A DNA stretch of 64,000 nucleotides from Thermodesulfovibrio yellowstonii DSM 11347 (GTDB lineage Bacteria > Nitrospirota > Thermodesulfovibrionia > Thermodesulfovibrionales > Thermodesulfovibrionaceae): the NCBI RefSeq assembly GCF_000020985.1, contig NC_011296.1, positions 1,850,001-1,914,000 on the forward strand, read 5' to 3'. Shown here piece after piece: positions 17,353 through 64,000 of this stretch (position 1 is its first letter; each line of letters opens with the position of its first letter). The position numbers were made by a program, and so were the translations under genes. The notes beneath the pieces were generated by a model, which made no database searches, had not been told where the DNA came from, and saw only the letters and a program-made list of their open reading frames with translations.

Positions 17353-18087
17353 ATGCAGATAATTCCAGCAATTGACCTTAAAGATGGCAAATGTGTAAGA
17401 CTTCGTCAGGGGAAGTTTAGCGAAGTTACAGTTTATTATGACAATCCCGAAGATGCAGCATTAAGATGGCAGAATGAAGGCGCTGAGGTTCTTCATGTAG
17501 TTGACCTTGATGGCGCAAAAGAGGGAAAAATCGGCAATCTTCCGTCAATAAAAAAAATCCGGGAAGCTTTCAGGGGTAACATAGAAGTTGGAGGAGGAAT
17601 AAGAAGGATTGAGGATATTGAATTGCTCCTTTCCGTAGGAATTGACCGAGTTATTGTTGGCACAATTGCTGTCCAGTCACCTGATTTTGTAAAAGAGGTT
17701 TGTAAAAGATTCCCTAAAAAAATAATTGTAGGCATTGATGCTAAAGATGGGCTTGTAGCTGTAAAAGGCTGGGTTGAAGTTACAGAAATAAGAGCCATAG
17801 AGCTTGCCTTAAAGATGCAGGATTATGGTATCTGGGGTATTATATACACAGATATATCAAGAGATGGAATGCTTACGGGACCAAATATTGAAGCAACAAA
17901 AGCCCTCGTTGAATCAGTCAAAGTTCCTGTGATAGCGTCCGGCGGAGTTTCATCAATTGAAGATATAAGGAAGCTTGCAGAAATTCCACAACTTTGGGGG
18001 GTAATAACAGGCAAGGCAATCTATTCAGGAGCAATTGATTTAAAAGAAGCCTTGAGAATTATAAAAGGGGACGGAGTAAAAAAATGA
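17353..18087 (+). CDS. hisA: Phosphoribosylformimino-5-aminoimidazole carboxamide ribotide isomerase
   Basis: This 244-residue TIM barrel catalyses the ProFAR-to-PRFAR step of histidine synthesis. Signatures are IPAIDLKDGKCVRLRQG (catalytic Asp near residue 8), VVDLDGAKEG, VGGGIRRIEDIE, and IIYTDISRDGMLTGPN (second catalytic Asp), ending with the phosphate site ASGGVSS. No RBS is seen. A TATACT at 17342-17347 ends five bases before the ATG, which suggests a leaderless mRNA. hisF, the next enzyme, lies 1.1 kb downstream beyond the cargo genes. Confidence 0.96.
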   Translation: MQIIPAIDLKDGKCVRLRQGKFSEVTVYYDNPEDAALRWQNEGAEVLHVVDLDGAKEGKIGNLPSIKKIREAFRGNIEVGGGIRRIEDIELLLSVGIDRVIVGTIAVQSPDFVKEVCKRFPKKIIVGIDAKDGLVAVKGWVEVTEIRAIELALKMQDYGIWGIIYTDISRDGMLTGPNIEATKALVESVKVPVIASGGVSSIEDIRKLAEIPQLWGVITGKAIYSGAIDLKEALRIIKGDGVKK

Positions 18088-18290
18088 GCGTTGAAATAGC
18101 AAAAAATAAATTAAAAGAGAGGAATAAAATGTTCTGCGTATTTTGCGGGGAAAAGATAGAGGGACTTAAATAGGAGAGAGAGCACAATTTTAGAGTTGCT
18201 GTATCCGAATATGAATGTGATTGTGGTAAATTCATTAGATTTATAGATACAAAGGGTACCGAGTTATATGCAACAGTAACTATAGATTAG
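18084..18290 (+). pseudogene. Zinc-ribbon-like small ORF interrupted by in-frame TAG
   Basis: The ATG at 18084 overlaps the hisA stop (ATGA). The frame reads 29 codons, hits TAG at 18171-18173, and then continues open in the same frame for 38 more codons to TAG at 18288-18290. The first part has FCVFCGEKI (C18, C21) and the second YECDCGKFI (C45, C47), so both halves of a four-Cys zinc-ribbon-like unit are kept on either side of the stop. It is either a recent nonsense mutation, or two short proteins, or a readthrough gene. No TAG-decoding machinery is visible here. Confidence 0.6.
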
Positions 18291-18322
18291 GATTAAAATA
18301 AATCACTTATTAAAAGATTATA

Positions 18323-19060
18323 ATGAAACAATATGAAGCAGTCATAAAAGTGATGAGAGAAAACGGAGGGTTTGCAACTCTCGGTTTCTTATATCAAGAA
18401 GTTTTGAAAATAAAAGATTGTGTATGGAAAACTAAGACCCCCTTTGCAAGTATCCGACGAATTGTTCAGGACGATAGATTTTTCTTTAAAATAAAACCAG
18501 GACTCTGGGCATTAAAAGAGTATAAAGATAAATTACCTATAAATCTTATTCCTCAGAAATCAATTGTAAAACAGCAGGAATTTAATCATAGTTATTATCA
18601 GGGACTACTTGTAGAAATCGGAAATCATAAAAATTTTCAAACTTTTGTTCCGAATCAGGATAAAAATAAAAAATATTTAAATAGAAAACTTGGTGACATA
18701 ACTACAATAGACAAATTCTACAAATTTAGTTACGACCATATAGTTCAGAAAGCCCAAACTATTGATGTCAGCTGGTTTAATGTAAGAAAAATGCCAGAGG
18801 CTTTTTTTGAAATAGAATATTCAACCGATATTCAAAGTTCTCTATTAAAATTTGTTGAATTACAGGATTTTAATGCGAACTTTGTTATCGTGGCAGACAA
18901 AGTAAGAGAAAAAGAATTTATTACAAAATTGTCTTTAAATGCATTCTCTGCAATCAATAAGAGGGTTAAATTTATGAGCTATGATAAGGTTTCAGATTGG
19001 CATACTAAAACCTATGAACTGATGATTATAGAAAGGAATATAGGTGTTTATTCCCCATGA
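18323..19060 (+). CDS. HARE-HTH protein with endonuclease-like C-terminal domain
   Basis: The 245-residue protein starts with a winged-helix HARE/HB1-like domain (about 1-70: AVIKVMRENGGFATLGFLYQ, ending FFKIKPGLWALKEY). A restriction-endonuclease-like domain follows with a D148 in TIDVSWF and E163/E165 in FFEIEYSTDI, consistent with the PD-(D/E)xK-type core seen in HARE-associated nucleases. No methyltransferase partner is adjacent. It sits between hisA and hisF, on the same strand. A TATAAT overlaps the chosen ATG, so the real start might differ slightly. Likely a defence or DNA-processing nuclease; the target is unknown. Confidence 0.75.
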   Translation: MKQYEAVIKVMRENGGFATLGFLYQEVLKIKDCVWKTKTPFASIRRIVQDDRFFFKIKPGLWALKEYKDKLPINLIPQKSIVKQQEFNHSYYQGLLVEIGNHKNFQTFVPNQDKNKKYLNRKLGDITTIDKFYKFSYDHIVQKAQTIDVSWFNVRKMPEAFFEIEYSTDIQSSLLKFVELQDFNANFVIVADKVREKEFITKLSLNAFSAINKRVKFMSYDKVSDWHTKTYELMIIERNIGVYSP

Positions 19061-19170
19061 GATGGATAGCTACTGGTGATACACAAATTGATAGAATTAT
19101 ATTTGCTGCTGCTGGAAGAAAATATCCTGCACCAGAAAGATATTCAAAACCTATAAATTATTTGGAGTAA
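19057..19170 (+). CDS. Small ORF of 37 codons, unknown
   Basis: The ATG overlaps the stop of the HARE-HTH gene (ATGA) and the ORF ends 3 bases before the hisF ATG, so it fills the gap exactly. The product begins MRWIATGDTQIDRIIF and is rich in Arg, Ala and Tyr. It matches no family I recognise. Its own 3' end supplies the hisF RBS (GGAG). It could be a true small protein, the remnant of a longer gene, or only a translational relay to hisF. Confidence 0.4.
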   Translation: MRWIATGDTQIDRIIFAAAGRKYPAPERYSKPINYLE

Positions 19171-19173
19171 ACG

Positions 19174-20010
19174 ATGCTTGCAAAACGTATAATTCCCTGT
19201 CTTGATGTTAAGGATGGAAGAGTTGTAAAGGGTGTTAATTTTCTTAATCTAAGGGATGCAGGAGACCCTGTTGAAAATGCCCTTTACTATAATGAGGAAG
19301 AGGCTGATGAGCTTGTTTTTCTTGATGTTACAGCGTCCCATGAGAAAAGAAAAATAATCATTGATGTTGTTGAAAGAACTGCCTCAGTAGTATTTATGCC
19401 TCTTACTGTTGGTGGTGGTATAAAAAGCCTTGATGACATAAGGGATTTGCTTAATGCAGGAGCAGATAAAGTATCCATAAACACAACTGCCGTAAAAGAC
19501 CCTTATTTTATTCAAAAAGCTTCAACACGCTTTGGCTCTCAATGCATAGTAATTGCAATAGATGCAAAGAGAGTGGATAAAAACTTTAATCCAAAAGCCT
19601 ATCCACCTGAGTCATGGTTTGATGATAAAGAACTTAGTGATGTGCTCTATAAAGAAGACTCCCGCTTTGTACTTTCCACACATGGTGGAAGACTCATGAG
19701 ACCCATTGATGCAATCGCATGGGCAAAGAAGATGGAAGAATTCGGTGCGGGAGAGATTCTGCTTACAAGTATGGATAGAGATGGAACAAAAGAGGGCTAT
19801 GATATAGAACTAACAAGGGCGATTTCAGAGGCAGTGAGTATTCCTGTTATTGCATCAGGCGGTGCTGGCACACTTGAGCATCTTTATGAAGCTTTTGCTT
19901 ATGCAAAGGCAGATGCAGCACTTGCAGCGTCCATATTTCATTTCAGAGAGTATTCAATAAGAGAGGCAAAAGAGTTTCTAAGGCAAAAGGGAATTCCAGT
20001 AAGAATATAA
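19174..20010 (+). CDS. hisF: Imidazole glycerol phosphate synthase, cyclase subunit
   Basis: This TIM-barrel subunit uses ammonia from HisH to convert PRFAR to IGP and AICAR. Signatures are [19 protein letters not shown] (catalytic Asp near residue 11), [42 protein letters not shown] (second catalytic Asp) and ASGGAGT. At 278 residues it is about 20 longer than most HisF proteins because of an insert near residues 135-165 ([20 protein letters not shown]). GGAG in the end of the preceding small ORF is its RBS. hisH is not in the window. Confidence 0.95.
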
Positions 20011-63128: not shown

Positions 63129-64000
63129 ATGAAGCAGATACCTGAAGATATAAAAAAAGAGATTGAAAAACTTGTCAAAGAACTCAACTATCACAACTAC
63201 CGTTATTACGTGCTTGATAGCCCAGTGATATCTGATGAAGAGTATGACATGATGCTAAGGAGACTTAAAGAGCTTGAAGAAAAATGGGGATACATACTGC
63301 CAGACTCACCAACTCAAAGAGTAGGTGCTGCACCATCTGAAAAATTTGAAAAGGCTGAACACCGTGAACCAATGCTTTCCCTTGATAATGCCTTTTCCAT
63401 AGAAGAGTTAAGAGATTTTGATGCCAGAGTTAAAAGGCTTCTTGGAAGTTCAGAGGAAGTAGAATACACTGTTGAGCCAAAGTATGACGGCTTGGCTGTG
63501 GAATTATCTTACAAGGATGGACTTCTTTACAAAGCATCAACCAGAGGTGATGGCTATGTTGGTGAGGATATTACTCAGAACATAAAGACAATAAAAGCTA
63601 TCCCTTTGAGAATTGAGGGAGTTGACAAAATTCCAGAAGAGATAGATATCCGTGGGGAAGTTTACTTAAACATTGATGAGTTTGAAAGAATAAACAAAGA
63701 GAGAATCGAAAAAGGCGAGCCTGTATTTGCCAATCCAAGAAATGCAGCTTCTGGCTCTGTAAGACAGCTTGACCCTTCAATAACAGCAAGTAGAAGGCTT
63801 TATATGTCCTGCTATGGAATAGGATATGTAAAAGGCATAGAGTTTAAAAGTCAGATAGAGTTTATTGAGTGGCTTAAAAAAGGGAGATTTCCTGTGCCTG
63901 CCTATGTGAAACTTGCAAAAGGCATTGAGGAGGTTATTGAGGCAATTAAAGAGATTGAAAAACTAAGGCAAGGCTATCCCTTTGAAACAGACGGGGCTGT
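63129..64000 (+). CDS. ligA: NAD-dependent DNA ligase, 5' part
   Basis: The ORF runs from ATG 63129 off the window end (290 codons seen, about 670 expected). It has the Ia domain LVKELNYHNYRYYVLDSPVI and SDEEYD, and the adenylation motif VEPKYDGLAVELSY with Lys at residue 118. The NTase continues with RGDGYVGEDITQN, RGEVYL and ANPRNAASGSVRQLD. RBS GGAGG is upstream at 63118-63122. It seals nicks in replication and repair. Confidence 0.96.
   Translation, partial: MKQIPEDIKKEIEKLVKELNYHNYRYYVLDSPVISDEEYDMMLRRLKELEEKWGYILPDSPTQRVGAAPSEKFEKAEHREPMLSLDNAFSIEELRDFDARVKRLLGSSEEVEYTVEPKYDGLAVELSYKDGLLYKASTRGDGYVGEDITQNIKTIKAIPLRIEGVDKIPEEIDIRGEVYLNIDEFERINKERIEKGEPVFANPRNAASGSVRQLDPSITASRRLYMSCYGIGYVKGIEFKSQIEFIEWLKKGRFPVPAYVKLAKGIEEVIEAIKEIEKLRQGYPFETDGA

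Follow-up and report, generated by a model that had tools for sequence, protein, structure and literature searches.

An in-frame TAG in a small zinc-ribbon-like gene of Thermodesulfovibrio: a probable nonsense interruption within a variable hisA–hisF slot

Directly behind hisA in Thermodesulfovibrio yellowstonii lies a short reading frame with one pair of cysteines before an in-frame TAG and a second pair after it, which raises the question of how both halves of a putative metal-binding motif came to be kept around a stop codon. The first-pass annotation, made from the DNA alone, had considered a very recent nonsense mutation, a recoding event or a split protein. Our analysis indicates that the locus is very probably a small gene of an ordinary kind, narrowly distributed and interrupted by a nonsense mutation, the remnant of one member of a two-gene cargo. 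The annotated layout was borne out: the frame runs from an ATG through a single internal TAG to a terminal TAG, with the CxxC pair upstream of the internal stop and the CxC pair downstream of it (Table 1). Across all six frames of the window, by which we mean the whole 64-kb stretch of DNA analysed, a CxxC pair, one in-frame stop and a CxC pair occur together within 8–30 residues only here. The ATG at 18084 is overlapped by the stop codon of hisA, and the frame thus begins inside the end of that gene.

Table 1 Features of the interrupted frame and its surroundings (window coordinates).
Feature	Position	Strand	Basis or remark
hisA	17353–18087	+	TIGR00007, 287 bits (cut-off 229)
Interrupted zinc-ribbon-like frame	18084–18290	+	Extent from the first-pass annotation; intact homologue in L012
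Probable true coding part (about 53 codons including the TAG)	18129–18290	+	Codon-position pattern; start inferred
First cysteine pair, C-V-F-C (C-x2-C)	18135–18146	+	Before the TAG
In-frame TAG	18171–18173	+	Tryptophan codon in the congener
Second cysteine pair, C-D-C (C-x-C)	18216–18224	+	After the TAG
Intact 245-aa restriction-endonuclease-like protein, HARE-HTH-like N terminus	18323–19060	+	PADLOC REase_II; PF05066 below cut-off
hisF, downstream border of the slot	19174–20010	+	TIGR00735, 387 bits

The two cysteine pairs have a suitable spacing and are present in both species that carry the gene; the intact ribbon would presumably bind zinc. Among curated zinc-ribbon models, PF08792 reaches 13.7 bits for the window frame (cut-off 22.9) and none matches the homologous locus L012. 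A structure model of the ribbon has low confidence (mean pLDDT 50.7), and a sequence search of the PDB with the ribbon returned chance-level matches only. A literature search, covering its sources in part, found nothing on the gene.

An uninterrupted copy of the same gene occupies the same hisA–hisF slot in a congener, the metagenome-assembled genome (MAG) Thermodesulfovibrio sp. Tomsk_34_156 (apparently our genome G003), where it sits between hisA and the same downstream open reading frame (ORF) as in the window. The two frames align without gaps over 66 codons at 76% identity, and the congener copy (L012/L048) has a tryptophan codon at the position of the TAG and both cysteine pairs intact. 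When the protein, with X for the stop, was searched for in 61 relatives, the G003 match, free of internal stops, had an E value of 1.8e-32; although 15 of the 61 matched at E values up to 1, the next best stood at 0.016, leaving G003 as the only good match besides the window's own genome. Five of the 16 genomes of the genus match at E 0.1, two of them strongly (again the window's own and G003), and these same two are the only ones among 395 phylum genomes at E 0.001. Searching genome contigs with the ribbon gave one match, the same Tomsk_34_156 MAG, and we found no homologues in viral contigs, phages or plasmids. The comparison with close relatives proposed in the first-pass annotation thus yields a sense codon in the only other genome with the gene, which supports the nonsense mutation. 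That annotation had also held that relatives with a sense codon, together with a silent downstream half in this strain, would reduce the case to simple decay; the congener supplies the sense-codon part.

Comparison of the two copies shows that the frame once evolved under constraint as coding sequence, chiefly in the part after the TAG. The ratio dN/dS is 0.24 overall, with 0.22 before the TAG and 0.24 after it. When the same nucleotide changes are placed at random, 22.0 amino-acid changes are expected over the whole frame, compared with 16 observed (P = 0.0054); after the TAG the figures are 10.9 and 7 (P = 0.013), and before it (18090–18170) 10.4 and 8 (P = 0.10). The signal is unevenly spread. 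Differences at codon positions 1/2/3 number 4/4/4 in 18090–18128 (P = 0.57), 1/0/3 in 18129–18170, where the stretch is too short for significance and constraint is only suggestive (P = 0.07), 4/2/3 in 18174–18206 and 0/0/6 in the distal 27 codons (18207–18287). Because codons 18090–18128 have no coding signature, the protein probably starts at ATG 18129, which is preceded by GAGAGG, rather than at 18084, and would have about 53 residues. The same non-coding stretch, the lack of any family match above cut-off and the restriction of homologues to two genomes in the phylum could be taken to mean that the frame was never a gene and that the likeness reflects conserved intergenic DNA of mobile cargo. 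We consider this very unlikely, given the deficit of amino-acid changes over the whole frame, the confinement of all six distal differences to third positions, and the intact congener frame with its two cysteine pairs.

The main rival to a nonsense mutation is a faulty genome record, with a TAG that the strain itself lacks and a gene that is whole. Only one codon stands between the frame and an uninterrupted reading, its start, second cysteine pair and end are all retained, and the distal half bears no sign of decay, all as an error would predict. The record, however, consists of one complete 2,003,803-base contig with 99.99% completeness, and no other clear gene is broken among the 38 sister ORFs with a window match of at least 60% identity, covering 18,703 window bases; we therefore regard a record error as unlikely. 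Those 38 come from 247 ORFs of at least 60 aa in 120 kb of the sister contig. Wholesale reassignment of TAG was examined in the same set and rejected: seven of the 38 hold nine stops between them, one being the ribbon and the other six ORFs of 62–98 aa. Five of the six overlie longer ORFs in another frame and are probably not genes. The sixth, a sister ORF of 98 aa, matches the window near 63779 at 76% across an in-frame TGA, and it does not lie over a longer window ORF.

Readthrough of the TAG, whether by a suppressor tRNA, through pyrrolysine or as a programmed event, would yield the full zinc ribbon at a low level. Retention of both cysteine pairs, the frame and the downstream half is what such readthrough would leave, and a conserved downstream half would indeed be expected under readthrough as well as under the nonsense reading. 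The decoding machinery, however, argues against it. Rfam gives 47 tRNA matches in the genome, and ARAGORN, run on loci covering all of them (30 loci and 15 further stretches), predicts no tRNA with a CUA anticodon there; the check for a tRNA(CUA) that the first-pass annotation proposed was thus negative. Nor does any PylS rise above cut-off in the genome (TIGR02367, best 23.7 bits against a cut-off of 178), and release factor RF1 has an intact frame scoring 558.9 bits (cut-off 423). TAG is in normal use as a stop: of 47 non-overlapping window ORFs with 150 or more codons, 8 end in TAG, 24 in TAA and 15 in TGA. RNA structure after the interrupting TAG is no better than in shuffled sequences (z = 0.07). 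The TAG is not conserved, the sole relative having its tryptophan codon there. The locus shares with UAG recoding by pyrrolysine or amber suppression the in-frame TAG and the conserved sequence on both sides, and differs from it in the CUA anticodon, PylS, conserved TAG and RF1 just described. Recoding thus finds no support, and we judge readthrough to be very improbable. An elaboration in which readthrough is low and regulated, giving a short peptide plus a little full-length ribbon that controls the adjacent nuclease-like protein, is extremely improbable.

A split protein, in which separate peptides from each side of the TAG act together, would be favoured by the GGAGAG that directly follows the stop. 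However, no in-frame ATG, GTG, TTG or CTG occurs in the rest of the frame after the TAG, which makes an independently started C-terminal half unlikely; the only in-frame alternatives that remain, ATT at 18234 and ATA at 18243 and at 18282, all lie past the CxC pair. We give this reading, the third in the first-pass annotation, almost no credence.

A nonsense mutation thus remains the best explanation, and the events can be outlined as follows. A small zinc-ribbon-like gene and a restriction-endonuclease-like gene would have formed a two-gene cargo in the hisA–hisF slot of two Thermodesulfovibrio species, and a point mutation in the species of the window would then have placed a TAG at the tryptophan position. 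With one homologue and no outgroup for polarity, the direction from tryptophan to TAG is the one we infer, because a constrained gene is much more likely to gain a stop than to arise by losing one. RF1 would terminate translation at the TAG and release a peptide with 14 residues if the start is at 18129, or 29 if it is at 18084. Such a peptide would keep the first cysteine pair only and could not by itself form a four-cysteine zinc site. The CxC pair, lost behind the stop with no in-frame restart ahead of it, was presumably needed for function, and the ribbon may have served the neighbouring nuclease-like protein. As that neighbour is intact in the window, the ribbon, if a partner, would be dispensable for its retention.

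The mutation is possibly recent, an age compatible with the data though not proven by them, and loss of the ribbon would then likewise be recent. That the distal 27 codons differ at third positions only fits a loss late on the window's branch. On the assumption that the downstream part evolved neutrally once the stop was in place, with half of the pairwise synonymous divergence on that branch, the eight non-synonymous differences of the whole downstream part limit the age of the stop to at most 63% of the branch; the single non-synonymous difference in the distal 27 codons, a segment chosen post hoc, lowers this to at most 29%. Single-stop nonsense pseudogenes of bacteria resemble the ribbon gene in having one in-frame stop at a relative's sense codon, a frame otherwise kept, and a normal RF1 and tRNA set. 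The ribbon is unusually short by comparison and is found in two genomes only, and nothing essential differs. As a broken gene the ribbon is of little weight. It is a neat small example of an apparently striking frame kept across a stop that is explained once a single related genome, the release factor and the tRNA set are consulted.

The more lasting observation is that the hisA–hisF junction of Thermodesulfovibrio carries different small cargo from one species to another. This junction (window 18088–19173; also L036, L037, L038, L039 and L041) is a variable cargo slot in the genus. Among 16 genomes surveyed, hisA was found in 14, and both genes lay in one locus in 11. The ribbon and nuclease-like cargo fills two of these 11 slots (G000, G003). 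Three (G004, G014, G015) contain a nucleotidyltransferase-like and HEPN-like pair; MNT–HEPN nucleotidyltransferase pairs thus occupy the same slot in three congeners, with proteins unrelated to the window cargo. One slot has a lone nucleotidyltransferase-like ORF (G012), another a short gap in which a HEPN-like fragment was recognised by eye (G009), and the remaining four are empty or shorter than 100 bases (G005, G007, G008, G011). The nucleotidyltransferase and HEPN names rest on Pfam matches below cut-off. Also within the slot, a 37-codon ORF with an ATG start (window 19058–19171) overlaps the end of the nuclease-like gene and is absent from the listing of the congener's junction.

The intact neighbour matches PADLOC REase_II in its C-terminal part (1.9e-10 for the window protein; all 14 members of alignment A1 match). 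Its N-terminal part is weakly similar to the HARE-HTH family PF05066, at 15.1 bits against a cut-off of 25.9. The structure model has a mean pLDDT of 62.0; a fold search with it found no PDB match at E ≤ 0.001, and neither did a sequence search of the PDB find a match. The protein shares with endonucleases combining HARE-HTH and REase domains the weak PF05066 N terminus and the REase_II C terminus, and differs in that PF05066 stays below cut-off and no methyltransferase gene lies beside it in the window. HARE-HTH domains have been suggested, without proof, to be readers of modified DNA (PMC11037411). In the genome to which the window belongs, PF01555 DNA methylases give ten matches, nine of them over cut-off. 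The nuclease-like gene occurs in 20 of the 395 phylum genomes and, at 49% identity, on an archaeal plasmid.

Third-position divergence from the congener is lower in the nuclease-like gene (38/245) than in hisA (83/243; P = 2e-6), which may reflect later transfer or a different constraint. At four loci (L053, L055, L057, L058), relatives of the nuclease-like gene directly follow ORFs that resemble DNA methyltransferases. These ORFs are of more than one kind, and several seem to be truncated; the ones at L055 and L057 match Pfam PF01555. It is possible that the nuclease-like gene inserted beside methyltransferase genes or within them. Of 18 loci with the nuclease-like gene, 6 have a small two-cysteine-pair ORF near it, as do 5 of the 81 ORFs that served as controls (Fisher P = 0.004), a hint of association obtained with a cysteine pattern chosen after some of the loci were known. 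The 18 loci leave out the distant L059 and L060; among the six, L056 looks spurious, and L006 and L007 belong to the same genus. Small two-cysteine-pair ORFs of this sort, as candidate counterparts of the ribbon only, lie beside the nuclease-like gene in L005 (1193–1459), L006 (1283–1498), L007 (1286–1489) and L055 (2247–2426).
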